NCBI RefSeq assembly: GCF_902498185.1
Contig: NZ_CABVIX010000012.1
Location: 62,001-126,000, forward strand
Origin: Pseudomonas fluorescens
GTDB taxonomy: Bacteria; Pseudomonadota; Gammaproteobacteria; Pseudomonadales; Pseudomonadaceae
Direction: 5' to 3'
Length of the DNA: 64,000 nucleotides
A model generated the notes under the pieces. The model was not told the origin of the DNA. It worked only from the letters and a program-made list of their open reading frames with translations, and made no database searches. Positions 723-63,004 of the stretch are shown one piece after another. Every line of letters starts with the position of its first letter. Position 1 is the first letter of the stretch. The position numbers were made by a program, and so were the translations under genes.

Positions 723-938
723 TCACAACTTGGCGATGGACACCTCAGTCGATTTCACGAAGGCGATCACTTCACTGCCCACCTGCAGCTCCAGCTCGCG
801 TACCGAGCGGGTGGTGATGACGGAGGTGACGACACCCGAAGCAGTCTGTACGTCGATTTCGGACAGGACCGGGCCTTCCAGGATTTCCTTTACGGTGCCT
901 TTGAACTGGTTGCGGACGTTGATCGCTTTGATAGTCAT
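723..938 (-). CDS. ssuF: molybdopterin-binding (Mop/TOBE) protein SsuF
   Basis: This 71-residue protein is a single Mop/TOBE fold of the kind found in molbindins, starting MTIKAINVRNQFKGTV and containing the SEIDVQTASGVVTSVIT core. Such proteins bind molybdate or a similar oxyanion. In pseudomonads a gene of this type closes the ssu operon and has been reported as needed for sulfonate use, although its exact role is unclear. It lies 28 bp downstream of ssuB on the same strand. The length is normal and the frame intact. Confidence 0.85.
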   Translation of the reverse strand: MTIKAINVRNQFKGTVKEILEGPVLSEIDVQTASGVVTSVITTRSVRELELQVGSEVIAFVKSTEVSIAKL

Positions 939-966: not shown

Positions 967-1779
967 TCAGTGCGCCCAGCGCAGTTGCGTGGGCAATGGG
1001 GCTACAGGTTCCGGCTCGGGCGCCTTGCCCGGGTCGGACAGAACACGGTTGAGCACTTCGCTCTCAAGGGCCGCCAAACGATGGGAGCCGCGTGCCCGCG
1101 GCCTGGTCAGGTCGACCAGCAAGTCCAGGCCGACCTCACCGTCTTCGATGAGGATCACCCGGTCGGCCACGGCGACCGCTTCGCTGACGTCATGGGTGAC
1201 CAGCAGGACGGTGAAGCCATGCTGACGCCACAGGCGTTCGATCAATTGCTGCATTTCGATGCGGGTCAGGGCATCGAGCGCGCCCAGCGGCTCGTCGAGC
1301 AGCAGCAGGCGCGGTTGGTGAATCAGGGCACGGGCCAGGGCTACACGCTGTTTCTGGCCGCCCGACAGTGCCGCCGGCCATTCATTGGCGCGGTCGGCCA
1401 GGCCTACCGCCTCCAAGGCTTCCAGGGCGCGTGGGCGCCAATTGCCGGCAAGACCCAGGCCGACGTTGTCGATCACCTTCTTCCACGGCAGCAGACGCGC
1501 GTCCTGGAACATCAGGCGGGTTTCCTCCCCGGCCTGCGACAGTGGCGCGGCGCCTGCCAGCAGCTGGCCGCCGGTTGGCTGGTCGAGGCCGGCCAGCAGG
1601 CGCAGCAAGGTGCTCTTGCCGCAACCGCTGCGCCCCACGATGGCAACGAACTGGCCAGCAGGAATGTGCAGGTCGATGCCCTTGAGCACCTCGCGCGGGC
1701 CGAACGCCTTGCGCGCACCTTGCACCGCCAGGGGTATGCCACGCAGCAGGCGTGGCGGCTGTTGCTTGAGCACGGTCAT
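967..1779 (-). CDS. ssuB: aliphatic sulfonate ABC transporter, ATP-binding protein SsuB
   Basis: This 270-residue cytoplasmic ATPase energises sulfonate uptake. Visible motifs are Walker A GRSGCGKS (about 49-56), signature LSGGQ (138-142) and Walker B LLLLDE (158-163), followed by a typical H-loop region ([11 protein letters not shown]). An open frame extends far upstream, but I chose the ATG at 1779. It follows a strong AGGAGGG ribosome binding site, and its codon overlaps the ssuC stop as ATGA. The transporter partners are SsuA (binding protein) and SsuC (permease). Confidence 0.93.
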
Positions 1780-2573
1780 GCGCCCTCCCTCCTGGCAGCT
1801 TGATAAGCCGGGTGCCAGCGCAGCCACACACGTTCCAGGCCACGAGCGGCAAGGTCGGCGAGCTTGCCGAGCACGGCATAGAGGACGATGGCCAGCACCA
1901 CCACGTCGGTCTGCAGGAATTCGCGGGCGTTCATCGCCAGGTAGCCGATGCCTGCATTGGCCGAGATGGTTTCGGCGACGATCAGCGTCAGCCACATGAA
2001 GCCCAGGGCGAAGCGCACGCCCACCAGGATCGACGGCAAGGCACCCGGCAGGATCACCTGAGTGAACAGCGAGAAGCCCGACAATCCATAGCTGCGCGCC
2101 ATTTCCACCAACGCCGGATCGACGTTGCGGATGCCGTGGTAAGTATTCAGGTAGATCGGGAACAACGTGCCCAGCGCGACCAGAAAGATCTTCGCCGACT
2201 CGTCGATGCCGAACCAGAGGATCACCAAGGGAATCAGCGCCAGGTGCGGCACGTTGCGGATCATCTGCACCGAACTGTCGAGCAAGCGTTCGCCCCAGTT
2301 CGACAAGCCGGTGATGAAGCCCAGCACCAGGCCGATGCTGCCGCCGATGACAAAGCCCAGTGCGGCTCGCCAACCGCTGATCGCCAGGTGCGACCAGATT
2401 TCGCCACTGCGCACCAGCTCGACCCCGGCAGAGACTACCGCGCTTGGCGCGGGCAGGATGCGTGTCGACAACCAGCCTGCGCTGACCGCCAGTTGCCAGA
2501 CCGCCAGCAGCAGCACCGGCAGGGCCCAGGGCGCCAGGCGGTGTGACCAGGATGATGAAATCGAACGACTCAT
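1776..2573 (-). CDS. ssuC: aliphatic sulfonate ABC transporter permease SsuC
   Basis: A 265-residue inner-membrane permease of the BPD-transport family with about six hydrophobic segments. The cytoplasmic EAA-type loop is visible near [21 protein letters not shown], where SsuB docks. The start [11 protein letters not shown] at 2573 is 10 bp after the ssuD stop. A longer upstream open frame overlaps ssuD and is rejected. It is coupled to ssuB by a 4-bp overlap. Confidence 0.93.
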
Positions 2574-2583
2574 GTCCGCTTCC

Positions 2584-3732
2584 TCAGCTCTGAGCCGCAG
2601 CTTTGGGCAAGATATCGTTGGCCACCATCTCGCCAAACGGGCTGACGTAATTCGCGCCGTGTGGCTGCTCCGGACGGTTGATCTCAAGATGCGGGAACAA
2701 CAGCTCGGCCACGCGGTACGACTCTTCCAGGTGTGGATAACCCGAGAAAATGAATGTATCGATGCCCAGGTCCGCGTACTCCTTGACCCGCGCCGCCACC
2801 GTCGGTCCATCGCCGACAAGCGCCGTGCCTGCCCCGCCGCGCACCAGGCCAACGCCTGCCCACAGGTTTGGGCTGACCTCGAGGTTGTCGCGGTTGCCAC
2901 CATGCAAGGCAGCCATGCGTTGCTGGCCGACCGAATCGAATCGTGCCAGCGAAGCCTGGGCGCGCTGGATGGTGTCATCGTCGAGGTGCGAAATCAGGCG
3001 ATCGGCCGCCTGCCAGGCCTCGGCATTGGTTTCACGCACGATCACATGCAGGCGGATGCCGAAGCGTACGGTACGGCCTTGCGCGGCGGCCTTGGCACGC
3101 ACCTGCTCGATCTTTTCGGCCACTGCCGCGGGGGGCTCTCCCCAGGTCAGATACAGCTCGACCTGCTCGGCGGCCAGGTCCTGCGCCGCCTCCGACGAGC
3201 CGCCGAAGTACAGCGGCGGACGTGGTTGCTGGACGGGCGGGTATAGCAGCCTGGCGCCCTTGACCTGAATGTGTTGACCGTCATAGTCGACAGTTTCGCC
3301 TTCCAGCACGCGGCGCCAGATACGGGTGAACTCCACCGAGGCCTGGTAGCGCTCTGCGTGGCTCAGGAACAGGCCATCACCGGAGAGCTCCTCTGGGTCG
3401 CCACCGGTCACCAGGTTGAACAGCGCACGGCCGTTGGACAGGCGGTCAAGCGTCGCCGCCTGGCGAGCCGCAACGGTGGGTGAAATGATCCCCGGGCGCA
3501 GGGCCACCAGGAATTTCAGGCGTTGGGTTACCGGGATCAGCGACGCTGCTACCAGCCAGGAGTCTTCGCACGACCGGCCGGTAGGAATCAGTACGCCACC
3601 GAAGCCGAGACGGTCGGCGGCCTGGGCGATCTGCTGCAGGTAGCCGTGATCGACCGCGCGGGCACCTTCGGAGGTCCCCAGGTACTTGCCGTCGCCGTGT
3701 GTAGGAAGAAACCAGAAAATATTCAGGCTCAT
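2584..3732 (-). CDS. ssuD: FMNH2-dependent alkanesulfonate monooxygenase SsuD
   Basis: This 382-residue member of the bacterial luciferase-like flavin monooxygenases uses FMNH2 and O2 to cleave C1+ alkanesulfonates to aldehyde and sulfite. It matches the SsuD family over its full length. The N-terminus [15 protein letters not shown], the conserved cysteine in GRSCEDSW (C55) and the basic RLHVIVRET segment are characteristic. A GAGGAG site precedes the ATG. The reduced flavin normally comes from SsuE, whose gene is missing upstream here, so SsuD must depend on another FMN reductase or be inactive. Confidence 0.95.
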
Positions 3733-3792: not shown

Positions 3793-4758
3793 TCAGGGCG
3801 CGATGGCGACCTTGGCCGGGGGTGTCCAGATCACATCCTTGATGCTCAACGGCTTGGGGATGAGCTTCAGGGCATGGAAGGTATCGGCGATCTTCTGCTG
3901 CGAGGCGATCACTGCCGGGGTCAGCGGCGCGGCTCCATAGCCCTGGCGCTTGACCGAGGTCAGGGTGATGTCGGCGGGCAGGCCCAACAGCGGCGCGACC
4001 TGGTCGGTCACCTCCTGCGGGTTGGCCTGGGACCATTCGCCTACGGCACGCACTTCGTCGATCACAGCGCTGACCACCGCTGGATGCTGGGTCGCATAGT
4101 CGCGGGTGGCCAGGTAGAACTGGTGATTGTCGACCAGGTCCTTGCCGTCTCTCAGGGTGCGGGCCTGCAGCTGCTTCTCGGCAGCGGCCTGGTACGGGTC
4201 CCAGATGACCCAGGCATCGACGCTGCCACGCTCGAAGGCAGCGCGGGCATCGGCCGGCGGCAGGTACACAGGTTGGATATCGCTGTATTTCAGGCCGGCG
4301 TCTTCAAGGGCGCGGACCAGCAGGTAGTGAACGTTGGAGCCTTTGTTCAGCACGACCTTCCTGCCCTTGAGCTCCTTGACCGACTGGATCGTCGAGCCCT
4401 TGGGCACTAGGATGGCTTCGCTGTGCGGCGCAGGTGGCTCATAGGCCACGTACAGCAGGTCGGCGCCAGCGGCCTGGGCGAACACAGGCGGGGTCTCGCC
4501 GGTCACGCCGAAGTCGATCGAGCCTACGTTGAGCCCTTCGAGCAGCTGGGGGCCGCCGGGAAATTCGGTCCATTGGACCTGGATGCCCTGGTCGGCAAGG
4601 CGCTTTTCCAGCGTGCCCTTGGCCTTGAGCAGCACCAGGGTGCCGTATTTCTGATAACCGATGCGCAGGCTCTCGGCCTGGGCTTGGGTAATGGCGCCGA
4701 GGGACACAGCCGCCGCAAACAGGGCGACCAGACCGCGACGCAAGAAGACTGTGCGCAT
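3793..4758 (-). CDS. ssuA: aliphatic sulfonate-binding periplasmic protein SsuA
   Basis: A 321-residue periplasmic binding protein delivering alkanesulfonates to SsuBC. A Sec signal peptide covers about residues 1-28, with cleavage after TQAQA. The mature protein starts ESLRIGYQKYGTLVLLKAKG, the usual opening of the SsuA/TauA-like NMT1 fold. An AGGAGAG ribosome binding site precedes the ATG. It lies 60 bp before ssuD and 89 bp after the ssuE remnant stop. Confidence 0.93.
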   Translation of the reverse strand: MRTVFLRRGLVALFAAAVSLGAITQAQAESLRIGYQKYGTLVLLKAKGTLEKRLADQGIQVQWTEFPGGPQLLEGLNVGSIDFGVTGETPPVFAQAAGADLLYVAYEPPAPHSEAILVPKGSTIQSVKELKGRKVVLNKGSNVHYLLVRALEDAGLKYSDIQPVYLPPADARAAFERGSVDAWVIWDPYQAAAEKQLQARTLRDGKDLVDNHQFYLATRDYATQHPAVVSAVIDEVRAVGEWSQANPQEVTDQVAPLLGLPADITLTSVKRQGYGAAPLTPAVIASQQKIADTFHALKLIPKPLSIKDVIWTPPAKVAIAP

Positions 4759-4847
4759 GGCGCTCTCCTGCGAAAGGGTTCGGGTTGCACCTGCTTGCCC
4801 GTTGGCGGGCGAGTAAGGTGGAAAAACGGTAAGGCGTGGCTGCCGGC

Positions 4848-4886
4848 TCAGATGCTCCAGCGGGCGCTGAGCAGGCGTTCGAAGAT
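4848..4886 (-). pseudogene. ssuE: 3' remnant of ssuE (NADPH-dependent FMN reductase)
   Basis: In the 161 bp between ssuA and lsfA the minus strand encodes IFERLLSARWSI followed by TGA (stop at 4850-4848). From memory, P. putida SsuE ends in nearly the same residues (NERLISARWSI), and ssuE normally occupies this place between lsfA and ssuA. Upstream of the match the frame reads ILVALRLAIAG back to the lsfA stop and is not recognisable as SsuE. About 570-590 bp of ssuE therefore appears to have been deleted. An assembly error, or a different gene tail such as an ABC permease, is the alternative. Confidence 0.65.
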
Positions 4887-4919
4887 CCCTGCTATGGCTA
4901 AGCGCAGTGCAACAAGAAT

Positions 4920-5558
4920 TCAGCGATTGGGTTGAGGTGTCAGGCGAAGGTATGGCTTGACGGCGCGGTAGCCGCGCGGGAAGCGTTGCTTGATCTCTTC
5001 CTCGTCCTTGAGCGACGGCACGATCACCACTTCGTCCCCGTCCTGCCAGTTGGCCGGCGTGGCGACCTTGTGGTTGTCGGTCAGCTGCAGTGAATCGATC
5101 ACCCGCAGAATCTCGTTGAAATTCCGGCCGGTACTGGCCGGATAGGTGATGGTCAGACGCACCTTCTTGTTCGGGTCGATCACGAACAGGGAGCGTACGG
5201 TCAGGGTATCGTTGGCATTGGGATGGATCAGATCGTACAGGTCCGAAACCTTGCGGTCGGCATCGGCGATGATCGGGAAGTTGACCACGGTATTCTGGGT
5301 TTCATTGATGTCATCGATCCAGCGATGGTGCGAATCGACCGGGTCGACCGACAGTGCGATTGCCTTTACCCCACGCTCGGCGAACTGGTCCTTGAGCTTG
5401 GCGGTGAAGCCCAGTTCGGTGGTGCACACTGGCGTGAAATCGGCGGGATGGGAGAACAGCACACCCCAGCTGTCGCCGAGCCATTCGTGGAAGCGGATGT
5501 TACCGACGCTGGATTCCTGTTCGAAATCGGGGGCGATGTCGCCGAGTCTGAGGCTCAT
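4920..5558 (-). CDS. lsfA: 1-Cys peroxiredoxin LsfA (sulfate-starvation induced)
   Basis: A 212-residue peroxiredoxin of the Prx6/1-Cys group that reduces hydroperoxides. The peroxidatic cysteine sits in HPADFTPVCTTELG, and the family's long C-terminal domain is present. I chose MSLRLGDIAPDF at 5558, preceded by AAGGAG, over an ATG 13 codons upstream that lacks a good site. LsfA is known as a protein induced by sulfate starvation in Pseudomonas. Its position at the head of the ssu cluster fits protection against oxidants produced during flavin-dependent desulfonation. Confidence 0.93.
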   Translation of the reverse strand: MSLRLGDIAPDFEQESSVGNIRFHEWLGDSWGVLFSHPADFTPVCTTELGFTAKLKDQFAERGVKAIALSVDPVDSHHRWIDDINETQNTVVNFPIIADADRKVSDLYDLIHPNANDTLTVRSLFVIDPNKKVRLTITYPASTGRNFNEILRVIDSLQLTDNHKVATPANWQDGDEVVIVPSLKDEEEIKQRFPRGYRAVKPYLRLTPQPNR

Positions 5559-5611: not shown

Positions 5612-5660
5612 CAAAAAAATAAAAAGAATAAATATCGATTTATTTATAACTACATCGCAT
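5612..5660 (-). promoter_or_regulatory. AT-rich promoter region of lsfA/ssu with an inverted repeat
   Basis: About 40 bases of almost pure A/T interrupt GC-rich DNA just upstream of lsfA. Inside is a perfect inverted repeat, aataaat (5627-5633) and atttatt (5638-5644), around atcg. Sulfur-starvation promoters are bound by CysB at AT-rich sites, so this is a reasonable candidate, but no consensus match can be claimed. Confidence 0.45.
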
Positions 5661-7047: not shown

Positions 7048-7574
7048 GTTTTGCTCCTCTACGTTCTAATTCTTGTGTGTCGCGGAAGGCGGGGTCTAGT
7101 GCCCTGCTCGTTCGTCGATGGCGATTTAGCACCAAGATGCGACCATTCAGTCAATCGTTACTTTTGATTTCACGACCTTGGTCTAATACGCGGCCGGGAT
7201 GACAGGATAATGACAATCCTATAAATCCAGAATGATTGTTTAACAAAATTCTCAGATTATTCAGGAATAACCATGAAACCTTTGAAACCGGAGGCTGTAT
7301 CGGCACCCTCTTCTCATTCCTTTAGGTTATTGCCAACGTTTGCCGTCTGAATGCTTTGCAGCCTGACGCGATCAACTGCGCTCGCCGCGCCAGAGCCTAG
7401 CACCGGGATTCCCTTTCTGCCGTACACCGAGCCGGGGAGGCGGCTGCCATTCGTCGCCAACGACAGAGCAAACAGCTCCTAAGCTAATGCTAAAAAGTTA
7501 TTTATTTGCGGTTTCTTAGATCATCTAGTCTAGACGTCATTCAGTCACCCCGATTGCCTGACGAGGGTTCTCCC
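7048..7574. promoter_or_regulatory. divergent intergenic region between porin and tauA
   Basis: 527 bases without a recognised gene. They must hold the porin and tau promoters. Visible are an AT-rich stretch near 7490-7506 containing ttatttat, also seen in the lsfA promoter. An 11-bp palindrome tctag-t-ctaga lies at 7524-7534, 40 bp before the tauA ATG. A 25-codon frame at 7273-7350 has AGGA before its ATG. I cannot place exact -35/-10 boxes. Confidence 0.45.
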
Positions 7575-8546
7575 ATGATTCCGCACGCTCCACTGCGCCT
7601 GTTTACTGCCCTTGCCCTGGCTGGTGCCAGCTGGTTCGCCCAGGCAGCCGACCTTACCGTGGCCTACCAGACCACCGTCGACCCCGCGAAAGTGGCCCAG
7701 GCCGATGGCACCTATGAAAAGGCCAGCAACGCCAGCATCGATTGGCGCAAGTTCGACAACGGCGCTGACGTGATCACCGCCGTGGCCTCGGGTGATGTCC
7801 AGATCGGCTATCTGGGCTCCAGCCCGTTGGCCGCCGCCGCCACCCGCAAGCTCCCGGTGGAAACCTTTCTCATCGCCACCCAGATCGGCGCTGGCGAGGC
7901 GCTGGTAGCCCGCGACAGCATCAAGACGCCGCAGGACCTGATCGGCAAGAAGATCGCCGTACCCTTCGTGTCCACCGGGCACTACAGCCTCCTGGCCGCG
8001 CTCAAGCAGTGGAATATCGACCCCTCCAAGGTGCAGATCCTCAACCTGGCGCCACCGGCGATCATCGCCGCCTGGAAGCGTGGCGACATCGACGCCACCT
8101 ACGTATGGGACCCAGCCCTGGGCGTGGCCAAGGAAAACGGCAAGGTGCTGATCACCTCCGGCGAGCTGGCGAGCAAGGGCGCGCCGACCTTCGACGCGTG
8201 GATCGTACGCAAGGACTTCGCCGCCAGGCACCCCGAGATCGTAAAGTCGTTCGCCAAGGTGACCCTGGACGCTTACGCCGAGTACCGCAAGGATCCGCAA
8301 GCCTGGCTGGCCAACCCGGACAACGTCAGCAAGCTGGCCAAGCTCTCTGGCGCCAAGCCGAGCGACATTCCGGTGCTGCTTGAAGGCAACGTGTTCCCAC
8401 TGGCCGCCGACCAGATCAGCGCGCTGGGCGCTCCAACCACCAAAGCCCTGACAGATACCGCCGCCTTCCTGAAGCAGCAAGGCAAGGTCGAAGCCGTACT
8501 GCCGGACTACTCGCCGTACGTCAGCGCCCACTACATCGCCAACTGA
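7575..8546 (+). CDS. tauA: taurine-binding periplasmic protein TauA
   Basis: A 323-residue binding protein with a signal peptide ending SWFAQAA (about residue 24) and a mature start DLTVAYQTTVDPAKVAQADG. That start is characteristic of TauA, as are YLGSSPLAAA and the TYVWDPALG segment. It captures taurine for TauBC. I chose the ATG at 7575 with GAGGG upstream, because the 23 codons before it would bury the signal peptide. It heads a four-gene operon ending in tauD. Confidence 0.93.
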   Translation: MIPHAPLRLFTALALAGASWFAQAADLTVAYQTTVDPAKVAQADGTYEKASNASIDWRKFDNGADVITAVASGDVQIGYLGSSPLAAAATRKLPVETFLIATQIGAGEALVARDSIKTPQDLIGKKIAVPFVSTGHYSLLAALKQWNIDPSKVQILNLAPPAIIAAWKRGDIDATYVWDPALGVAKENGKVLITSGELASKGAPTFDAWIVRKDFAARHPEIVKSFAKVTLDAYAEYRKDPQAWLANPDNVSKLAKLSGAKPSDIPVLLEGNVFPLAADQISALGAPTTKALTDTAAFLKQQGKVEAVLPDYSPYVSAHYIAN

Positions 8547-8558
8547 TCGGAGCCTGTC

Positions 8559-9353
8559 ATGGCCTTGCTTGAACTGGAGCGCATCAGCGCACAGTACCCC
8601 GGCGCCGCTGAACCGGTGCTGGCCGATATCAACCTCACCCTCGGGCCACGCCAGTTGCTGGTGGCCTTGGGACCCTCGGGCAGCGGCAAGACGTCGCTGC
8701 TCAACTTGATTGCAGGTTTCGTCTCGCCCAGTAGCGGTCGCATCACCCTTGATGGCGTTCCGGTGCAAGGTCCTGGCGCCGACCGCGGGGTCGTGTTCCA
8801 GGACGACGCCCTGCTGCCCTGGCAGGATGTGCTGGGCAATGTCGGCTTCGGCCTGGAACTGGCGGGCGTGCCGCGTGCCAAGCGGGAGCAGACCGCGCGT
8901 GAAATGCTGTCCATGGTGGACCTCGCCGGTTTCGGCGAGCGGCGTATCTGGCAGCTCTCGGGCGGGCAGAAGCAACGCGTGGGCCTGGCCCGCGCGCTGG
9001 CAGCCGACCCGCGTGTGCTGTTGATGGATGAGCCTTTCGGCGCCCTCGACGCGTTCACCCGCGAGCAGATGCAGGAGCTGCTGCTGCAGGTCTGGCAGCG
9101 TACCGCCAAGCCTGTGTTCCTGATCACCCACGACATCGAGGAAGCGGTCTTCCTGGCCAGCGAGCTGATACTGCTGGCGCCCAATCCCGGGCAGATCGTC
9201 GAGCGCCTGCAGCTGGACTTCGGCCAGCGCTATGCCGCGGGCGAGTCGGCGCGGGCGATCAAATCCGACCCCCGTTTCATCGAGACCCGCGAACACGTCC
9301 TGGCGCGGGTCTTCTGCCAACGCAGCGCCGCCCAGCGGCAGGAGTCCGCATGA
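8559..9353 (+). CDS. tauB: taurine ABC transporter ATP-binding protein TauB
   Basis: A 264-residue cytoplasmic ATPase with Walker A GPSGSGKT (38-45), signature LSGGQ (133-137), Walker B VLLMDE (153-158) and an H-loop in [10 protein letters not shown]. It energises taurine uptake through TauC. It starts 12 bp after tauA and overlaps tauC by 4 bp (ATGA). Confidence 0.93.
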
Positions 9354-10189
9354 GCAGCCTGGACCTTCCGGTGGTCGACAAGCCTGTGGCTGCAAAGCCG
9401 CCCGCCAATGCGCCACGACGCTCGCTGAGCACGCGCTGGATCAGCACCGTTACCCTCGCAAGCCTGCTGCTGGTGTGGTGGCTGGTGACTGCCGCCGGCT
9501 GGATCGAGCCACTGTTCCTGCCCTCGCCCGGCGACATCCTGAGCAGGGCCTCATCGCTGCTGACCCAGGGTTACATGGACGCCAGCCTCTGGCAGCACCT
9601 GGGCGCGAGCCTGGGCCGCATCGGCCTGGCGCTGGGCGCCGCGGTGCTGACGGCGATCCCGGTGGGCATCGCGATTGGGTACAACCGTATCGCCCGCGGC
9701 ATTCTCGATCCGCTGATCGAGTTCTACCGGCCAATTCCACCGTTGGCCTATCTTCCGCTGATCGTGATCTGGTGCGGCATCGGTGAGCTGTCCAAGGTGC
9801 TGCTGATCTTTCTGGCGATCTTCGCCCCGATCGCCATTGCCACCGCGACCGGCGTGCGCACCGTCGACCCGATGAAGCTGCGCGCGGCTCGATCGCTCGG
9901 CGCGACACGCTTGCAGTTGATTCGTCATGTGATCCTGCCCAGCGCCCTTCCCGATATCCTGACCGGCATCCGCATCGGCCTCGGGGTTGGCTGGTCGACC
10001 CTGGTGGCGGCCGAGCTGATCGCGGCCACCAGCGGCCTGGGCTTCATGGTGCAGTCCGCTGCGCAGTTCCTGGTCACAGACGTCGTGGTACTGGGGATTC
10101 TGCTGATCGCACTGATCGCCTTTTCGCTGGAGATGGGCCTGCGCGCCCTGCAACGCAAGCTGGTGCCCTGGCATGGGCAGAGCCACTGA
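9350..10189 (+). CDS. tauC: taurine ABC transporter permease TauC
   Basis: A 279-residue inner-membrane permease with about six hydrophobic helices. Its cytoplasmic EAA loop runs [20 protein letters not shown], where TauB binds. It has a proline-rich cytoplasmic N-terminus of about 25 residues before the first helix. Translation is coupled to tauB. Confidence 0.93.
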
Positions 10190-10223
10190 TTCCGAATGGC
10201 CACGCCGACACATCGGCGTCTGA

Positions 10224-11069
<846 letters not shown>

Positions 11070-60787: not shown

Positions 60788-63004
60788 CACCGGATTGCTC
60801 AGGCGCTCGAGCAGAGTGGCCTGGGCACTGCGCGGGTTCTGGTTGCCGGTTGGCGTGCTGCGCACATAGCGGCCGTCCGCCTGCAGGATCCAGGCATGGG
60901 TATTGTCGGTCAGGTAGCTTTCCAGCTCCTTCTTGACCCGCAGCAGCAGCTTCTTGCCGTCGACCGGGAAGCAGGTCTCGACACGCTTGTCGAGATTGCG
61001 CTCCATCCAGTCGGCACTCGACAGGTAGATCTGCTCTTCGCCGCCATTGAGGAAGTAGAACGCCCGGGTGTGCTCCAGGAAGCGGCCGATGATCGAGCGC
61101 ACGTGGATGTTGTGCGATACCCCTGCAATACCCGGCCGCAGGCAGCACATGCCGCGGACGATCAGGTCGATGCGCACGCCTGACTGGCTGGCCTTGTACA
61201 ACGCGCGGATGATCTTGGCATCGGTCAGCGAGTTGAACTTGGCAATGATGTGGGCTGGCTTGCCGTCCAGGGCGAACTGGGTCTCCCGGGCGATCATGTC
61301 GAGCATGCCCTTCTTCAGGGTAAACGGCGCGTGCAGCAGCTTTTTCATGCGCAGGGTCTTGCCCATGCCGATCAGCTGGCTGAACAGCTTGCCAACGTCT
61401 TCACAGAGCGCGTCGTCGGATGTCAGCAGACTGTAGTCGGTGTACAAGCGCGCGTTGCCGGCATGGTAGTTGCCGGTGCCGACGTGCGCGTAGCGGACGA
61501 TCTCCCCGGCCTCGCGACGCAGGATCAGCATCATCTTGGCGTGGGTCTTGAACCCCACCACGCCGTAGATCACCACCGCGCCTGCCGCTTGCAGGCGGCT
61601 GGCCATCTGCAGGTTGGACTCTTCGTCGAAGCGCGCGCGCAGCTCGATCACCGCAGTGACCTCTTTGCCGTTACGCGCGGCGTCGACCAGAGCGTCGACG
61701 ATCTCCGAGTTGGCACCGCTGCGGTACAGGGTCTGGCGTACCGCAAGCACGTGCGGGTCCTTGGCGGCCTGGCGCAGCAGGTCGACCACCGGGGTGAACG
61801 ACTCGAAGGGGTGCATCAGCAGGATGTCCTGCTTGCTCACCACGCTGAAGATGTTATCGGCGTTCTGCAGCAACTTGGGGATGTGCGGAGTGAATGGGGT
61901 GTATTGCAGCTCCGGGTGGCTGTCCAGGCCTGTAATGCTGAACAGCCGGGTCAGGTTGACCGGACCTTTCACCTGGTAGAGTTCGCTTTCACTCAGGTTG
62001 AACTGCTTGAGCAGGTAGTCGGACAAGTGTTTCGGGCAGGTGTCGGCCACCTCAAGACGCACCGCATCGCCGTAGCGCCGTGAGAACAGCTCGCCACGCA
62101 GTGCGCGGGCCAAGTCTTCCACGTCCTCGGAGTCCAGCGCCAGGTCGGCGTTACGGGTCAGGCGGAACTGGTAGCAGCCCTTTACCTTCATGCCCTGGAA
62201 CAGATCATCGGCGTGGGCGTGGATCATCGACGACAGGAACACGTAGTTGTCGCCAGGGCCGCCCACCTCTTCCGGCACGCGGATGACCCGCGGCAACAGG
62301 CGTGGCGCCGGAATGATCGCCAGGCCCGAGTCGCGGCCGAAGGCGTCGACGCCCTCTAGCTCGACAATGAAGTTCAGGCTCTTGTTGACCAGCAAGGGGA
62401 ACGGGTGAGTCGGATCGAGACCGATCGGAGTGATGATCGGCGCAATCTCGTCGCGGAAATAGCGGCGCACCCAGGTCTTGAGCTTCTGCGTCCAGTGGCG
62501 GCGACGGATGAAGCGGATCTGGTGCTTTTCAAGCTCCGGCAACAGCACATCGTTGAGGATCGCGTACTGGCGATCGACCTCGATATGCACCAGGTCGCTG
62601 ATACGCGCCAGCGCCTGATGCGGCTGCAGGCCGTCAGCCCCGGCCTGTTCACGGGCAAAGGTAATCTGCTTCTTCAGGCCCGCCACGCGAATCTCGAAGA
62701 ACTCGTCCAGGTTACTGGAGAAGATCAGCAGGAATTTCAGGCGTTCGAGCAGCGGATAGTTCTCGTCCAGCGCCTGTTCAAGCACGCGGATGTTGAACTG
62801 CAACTGCGAGAGCTCGCGATGAATGTACAGGCTGCTGTCGTCCAGGCTTGGAATGGTGATCGCCGGCGCGGGCAATGGGGCGGGCGCAGGCGTCTCGACC
62901 AACGGCTCAGGCACCGCTGGCAGGTCGGGCGGCGTTTGCACCAGTTGCTCGGGCACAGGTTGAGCGTCCTTGATCTCGACAGGGGTTAGCACTTCGTTAT
63001 TCAT
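60773..63004 (-). CDS. ppk: polyphosphate kinase Ppk (PPK1)
   Basis: A 743-residue PPK1 that polymerises ATP gamma-phosphate into polyphosphate. The core starts near residue 55 ([20 protein letters not shown]). The catalytic phosphohistidine is in [16 protein letters not shown], and a further conserved histidine is near [19 protein letters not shown]. An N-terminal extension of about 50 residues rich in Pro, Val, Glu and Ala precedes the core. AGGA precedes the ATG. Confidence 0.96.

Follow-up and report, generated by a model that had tools for sequence, protein, structure and literature searches.

Loss of ssuE from a Pseudomonas fluorescens sulfonate operon and its probable coupling to lsfA

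The sulfonate operon of the Pseudomonas fluorescens genome examined here bears the mark of a real gene loss in a known operon: ssuE has been deleted, and a short remnant of it lies between lsfA and ssuA. Our preferred explanation, which we hold as a whole with good but not full confidence, combines this deletion with read-through transcription from lsfA and with an SsuD supplied by a general flavin reductase. Across related species the pattern is one of recurrent ssuE loss with convergent rewiring of promoter and terminator. By the window we mean the whole 64,000-nucleotide stretch that was analysed (positions 62,001 to 126,000 of contig NZ_CABVIX010000012.1), and its relevant features are as follows.

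723 to 938, minus strand: ssuF, 71 aa, intact; an open frame named from its position and from the operon order given in PMC3596284
967 to 1779, minus strand: ssuB, ATPase, 270 aa, intact; an open frame named from position and resemblance, without a family-library run
1776 to 2573, minus strand: ssuC, permease, 265 aa, intact; an open frame named in the same way as ssuB, without a family-library run
2584 to 3732, minus strand: ssuD, FMNH2-dependent alkanesulfonate monooxygenase, 382 aa, intact; TIGR03565 at 639.6 bits (cut-off 518.2)
3793 to 4758, minus strand: ssuA, sulfonate-binding protein, 321 aa, intact; over the cut-offs of TIGR01728 and NF008588
4788 to 4820, minus strand: conserved hairpin between ssuE and ssuA, retained; from a covariation alignment against slid controls
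4848 to 4880, minus strand: ssuE remnant, the last 10 codons (ERLLSARWSI) and stop; agrees with intact ssuE ends at as many as 32 of its 33 bases
4880 to 4881, minus strand: deletion joint, a CG common to both sides (lsfA 3' flank and ssuE codons 187-188); from comparison of the flank and of ssuE ends
4920 to 5558, minus strand: lsfA, 1-Cys peroxiredoxin, 212 aa, intact; recognised by family scan, with 86-96% identity to its counterparts at related loci
5621 to 5651, minus strand: lsfA upstream element, AT-rich and partly palindromic, a probable promoter or activator region; conserved in relatives

The ssuE remnant and the deletion joint

The lsfA stop codon (4920-4922) and the ssuA start codon (4758), both on the minus strand, lie 161 bp apart, just as the original prediction had put it, and no complete ssuE stands as first gene of the operon, where a 33-nt stump alone is present. 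The minus strand from 4922 to 4848 translates as ILVALRLAIAGIFERLLSARWSI, with a stop at either end. Compared with SsuE of P. putida 31753 and other related loci, in place of that of KT2440, the 33 nt at 4880-4848 agree at 32 of 33 bases with their best DNA matches, the ssuE ends of loci L006, L012, L013, L018 and L024, and of 69 ssuE ends collected at related loci 50 encode precisely ERLLSARWSI followed by a stop; so close a likeness is not due to chance. The peptide FERLLSARWSI had been read as the end of SsuE, which holds for ERLLSARWSI but not for the F, a chimeric codon. The genes downstream had been said to be intact, and ssuA, ssuD, ssuC, ssuB and ssuF are indeed complete open frames in that order, the last three named by position and resemblance. 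Near the ssu genes, past an outer-membrane porin-like gene, lies a tauABCD-like cluster (7506-11069, plus strand), in which tauA scores over the TIGR01729 cut-off and the remaining tau genes were named by reading.

Among the best 80 ssuA relatives, drawn from a larger number of candidates, 69 have a full ssuE just upstream of ssuA, ten lack ssuE, and one, L077, carries it in out-of-register pieces only, possibly through a frameshift. Upstream of ssuE stands lsfA in 64 of the 69, an arrangement of lsfA before ssuEADCBF that is described in PMC3596284; the other five comprise four short contigs and L012, in which ssuE is present and no lsfA was found within 5 kb upstream. The stump, together with the full ssuE in the same slot of most relatives, bears out the proposal that ssuE was deleted and left only its last codons.

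Comparison of the flanks places the change-over at 4880/4881. Upstream of the joint the sequence corresponds to what follows lsfA in L009 and other loci, as far as the point where their terminator begins, and the downstream side is the end of ssuE: the L009 flank reads ...AGCAGGGATCTTCGGGCCGTTTCGACGGCCCTTTTTT, an intact ssuE end ...AACGAACGCCTG..., and the window across the joint ...AGCAGGGATCTTCGAACGCCTG..., with a 2-bp CG overlap. The stretch ILVALRLAIAGI is lsfA flank, and the codon for the F ahead of ERLLSARWSI is accordingly made up from both sides. The joint had been placed near 4887-4919, on the ground that the frame stays open up to the lsfA TGA; this did not stand, the frame being retained lsfA 3' flank rather than ssuE. 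From the lsfA stop to ssuA there are 875 bases in L008 and 164 in the window, which leaves about 711 bp missing, and since the spacers of other relatives are longer still we give the deletion as about 700 bp or more. A deletion of that size joined the lsfA 3' flank to ssuE codon 188 through the CG overlap. Comparison with relatives shows that the lsfA terminator, the ssu promoter region, the ssuE leader and ssuE codons 1-187 went with it, and that the ssuA leader hairpin, the ssuA ribosome-binding site and ssuADCBF were left untouched. When 149 Pseudomonas genomes were searched with the DNA of the joint region, the window's own genome alone, among the matches listed, matched over the full length.

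There is very little doubt in our minds that the deletion is real. That ssuE is present and was collapsed or misjoined in assembly is conceivable in a draft of 80 contigs, but we consider it most improbable: no contig has an SsuE match, the joint shares only 2 bp and thus no repeat such as assemblers collapse, it lies about 66.9 kb into the 148-kb contig C12 and not at a contig end, and other genomes have lsfA-ssuA joints that lack ssuE and bear different scars. Nor do we give appreciable weight to a lineage that never had ssuE and in which the SARWSI tail is the end of another gene. The ten ssuE-less loci among the best 80 relatives would fit such a history, but the tail sits in the right place, on the right strand and at the right frame end, it matches ssuE ends at up to 32 of 33 bases, and the relatives around the window's branch have ssuE.

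Terminator loss and probable read-through from lsfA

Relatives with or without ssuE carry a terminator behind lsfA (GGGCCG-loop-CGGCCC-T run) and an AT-rich motif, AATAAnCAAATGAAAAAATATGATTT, ahead of the ssuE slot, and both are absent from the window. From its position and conservation we infer that the AT-rich motif is the ssu promoter. The deletion had been thought a clean one of ssuE, which is right as to the gene but missed that the lsfA terminator and ssu promoter region went as well, a loss of whose reality we are highly confident. Ten ssuE-less loci compared here all keep the promoter-like motif (by eye). A consensus scan of L008 recovers the lsfA terminator and a weak promoter-like match at the motif; the same scan of the lsfA-ssuA gap of the window gives neither a terminator nor a promoter match, so that by such scans the genes lie as in a fused unit and the operon has no promoter region of its own between lsfA and ssuA. 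No copy of the ssu motif with three or fewer mismatches was found in the whole window genome, the one genome on which this pattern was run.

The element at 5621-5651 is the only conserved promoter region still upstream of ssuADCBF. In the P. putida group it is kept upstream of lsfA almost throughout, the window included, and it is weaker in L045, L062 and L031; a sigma-70 scan finds no consensus promoter at the lsfA upstream region either. With terminator and ssu motif gone and the lsfA upstream region conserved, ssuADCBF probably depends on lsfA transcription. Judged from the sequence, read-through of ssuADCBF from lsfA is quite likely, and the genes would then form a single lsfA-ssuADCBF unit driven by the lsfA promoter. 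In P. aeruginosa, sulfur starvation raises lsfA expression (PMC12581299), and it induces lsfA in P. putida as well (PMC3596284). Given this induction by sulfate starvation in other Pseudomonas, the fused operon would stay under sulfur control.

The hairpin in the ssuA leader has 12 pairs, and over 41 sequences 96.1% of cells are paired, against 26-48% in slid controls. Four pairs have changed on both sides, a count reached by 3 of 500 shuffles, while the count of pair types is unremarkable (113 of 500). Searched with a model of the hairpin, 15 of 20 genomes have a single copy and five have none, and Rfam has no match in the hairpin region. Nearly all loci that have lost ssuE still have the hairpin, which is missing (by eye) from L061, L065, L160 and L161; it may act on the stability or translation of ssuA mRNA.

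Reductase supply to SsuD and the age of the deletion

In principle, SsuD requires only free FMNH2. The window genome (reported 100% complete, 80 contigs) encodes one copy of SsuD and has no match at E <= 0.001 to the SsuE family model or to the MsuE family (TIGR03566), so that SsuD is not supplied by MsuE; SfnG is also absent, its best match falling below cut-off. The search for other FMN reductases in the genome left five PF03358 (FMN_red) and four PF01613 (Flavin_Reduct) proteins as candidates. NCBIfam scans of these put ArsH and WrbA over cut-off and two proteins in no family, and their azoreductase-like and HpaC/HsaB/FerA-like matches were below cut-off. None of the nine is classed as a sulfur reductase, and a dedicated replacement reductase is not supported. 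By reading, no sulfur gene stands among the open frames listed around the two C1 reductases of L150, and a plasmid search found nothing. Lacking both MsuE and SsuE, the genome has no dedicated sulfur reductase left. Acinetobacter MsuE supplies electrons to SsuD and drives it in vitro, according to PMC13352529, so a reductase other than SsuE can serve SsuD. The SsuD of the window would draw its FMNH2 from a general flavin reductase, a step of which we are less sure, and we regard the chances that SsuD still works with another reductase as evenly balanced.

At its roughly 23 non-synonymous sites the stump shows no amino-acid change from the common SsuE end. For a stump evolving neutrally along the entire window branch, this outcome would have a probability of 0.0065 with the dS of ssuA, and a smaller one with the dS of lsfA or ssuD; the deletion thus probably fell late on that branch and is probably recent. 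Simple Nei-Gojobori counts give dN/dS on the window branch as 0.068 for ssuD, 0.112 for ssuA and 0.060 for lsfA, all within the range of other rows, with ssuA among the higher values (other rows 0.04-0.13). Since the deletion is young, these ratios mostly reflect the time before it, and we reject them as proof of continued SsuD function; the intact downstream genes are, for the same reason, no proof of present SsuD use. In pairs from longer-standing ssuE-less groups ssuD has a dN/dS of 0.012-0.024 (0.04 for L016/L021), which as a sequence pattern supports SsuD being used there without SsuE.

The genome's lack of both SsuE and MsuE also suits a loss of function, in which alkanesulfonate desulfonation is abolished, ssuADCBF is starting to decay but too early for mutations, and taurine use continues through tauABCD, a route that needs no FMNH2. 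The tau-like cluster with its intact tauA at 7506-11069 and the youth of the deletion (a stump without amino-acid change, neutral chance at most 0.0065) agree with this account as well, and we consider it a serious possibility, if a somewhat doubtful one. Against it, G146, G215 and G345 also have SsuD without SsuE and MsuE, ssuD is well conserved in L159 and L016, the two comparable ones, and free FMNH2 is in principle all that SsuD needs.

Recurrent loss and comparison with known systems

SsuE scores over its family cut-off in 348 of 398 sampled Pseudomonas genomes. The remaining 50, chosen by best E-values, were searched for SsuD and MsuE, which are over cut-off in 15 and 11 of them, respectively. 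SsuD without SsuE is found in 14 of the 398 genomes, the window's included; left out of the 14 are G080, whose SsuE match is partial and below cut-off, and G206, where MsuE stands beside a 68%-identical SsuD-like fragment on a short contig. MsuE is present in ten of the 14 and absent from G000, G146, G215 and G345, the window's genome being one of these four. The base rate of MsuE is 60 of 149 genomes. A link between ssuE loss and MsuE presence is not established: within the same sample the comparison is 6/8 against 54/125 (Fisher p = 0.14, relatedness uncorrected), and 10/14 against 54/125 gives p = 0.05 but mixes samples, again with relatedness uncorrected. The ssu motif is present in 11 of the 14 (nine by regular expression, L121 and L124 by eye); motif and lsfA-ssuA terminator are both absent from three, namely the window, L120 (G215) and L129 (G023).

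On a tree of lsfA, ssuA and ssuD (82 rows; seven syringae-type loci, L077 and L078 left out), the 14 ssuE-less rows need seven changes (at least six if well-supported branches alone are counted), and three changes are needed for the fused rows, which belong to three lineages; label changes may be gains or losses, and L161 sits on a long branch. The scars differ too, which favours separate losses: the window keeps 10 ssuE codons, L007 seemingly the last two (AGTATCTGA), and L016 and L166 none (by eye). On these sequence comparisons, ssuE appears to have been lost several separate times in related species. The syringae-type loci are wrongly taken as ssuE loss with ssuD kept, as six of the seven are without ssuD too and L051 ends too soon. 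In the six (L042, L061, L062, L065, L075 and L084) ssuA stands without ssuE and ssuD within the DNA searched, and in L042, L061 and L075 a permease gene (ssuC) and then ssuB directly follow ssuA, a transporter without oxygenase; these six loci are a useful contrast. L078 has a full ssuE and ssuA and no ssuD match in about 5 kb downstream.

Descriptions of two-component flavin monooxygenases usually pair them with a reductase dedicated to them. Strains that have repeatedly lost ssuE in nature and kept the oxygenase are ready-made material to test whether that pairing is obligatory, and the joint is a natural promoter replacement that places a sulfonate operon under an oxidative-stress and sulfur-starvation gene. 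We put forward only tentatively, as a rather unlikely generalization, that Pseudomonas SsuD needs no dedicated reductase, ssuE having been lost at least about six times with ssuD conserved, and that a few lineages, the window's among them, run SsuD on housekeeping reduced flavin, the operon having come under the lsfA promoter independently three times. Selection might favour the coupling to lsfA, since a reductase without its partner makes free FMNH2, which gives rise to peroxide. We recognised no description of ssuE loss or of an lsfA-ssu fusion in the literature searched, which mostly excludes subscription journals, and one may have been published.

The window shares with the P. putida-type lsfA and ssuEADCBF the order lsfA, ssuA, D, C, B, F, the ssuA leader hairpin and the lsfA upstream element, and differs from it in an ssuE cut to 10 codons and in lacking the lsfA terminator and ssu promoter region. 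MsuE systems of Acinetobacter baylyi and Pseudomonas, in which one unlinked reductase feeds several monooxygenases, SsuD included in Acinetobacter (PMC13352529), differ in that MsuE is absent from the window genome. The ssuE-less ssuADCB loci of the P. putida group (11 of the 14 genomes) have, like the window, lost ssuE and kept ssuD; unlike the window, they keep the ssu promoter-like motif and mostly have no recognisable ssuE stump. The joints of G215 (L120/L159) and G023 (L129/L160) resemble that of the window in being without ssuE, ssu motif and lsfA-ssuA terminator, but they leave the stop and start codons 154 and 42 bp apart, show no stump and sit at different places on the tree, and G023, unlike the window genome, has MsuE.
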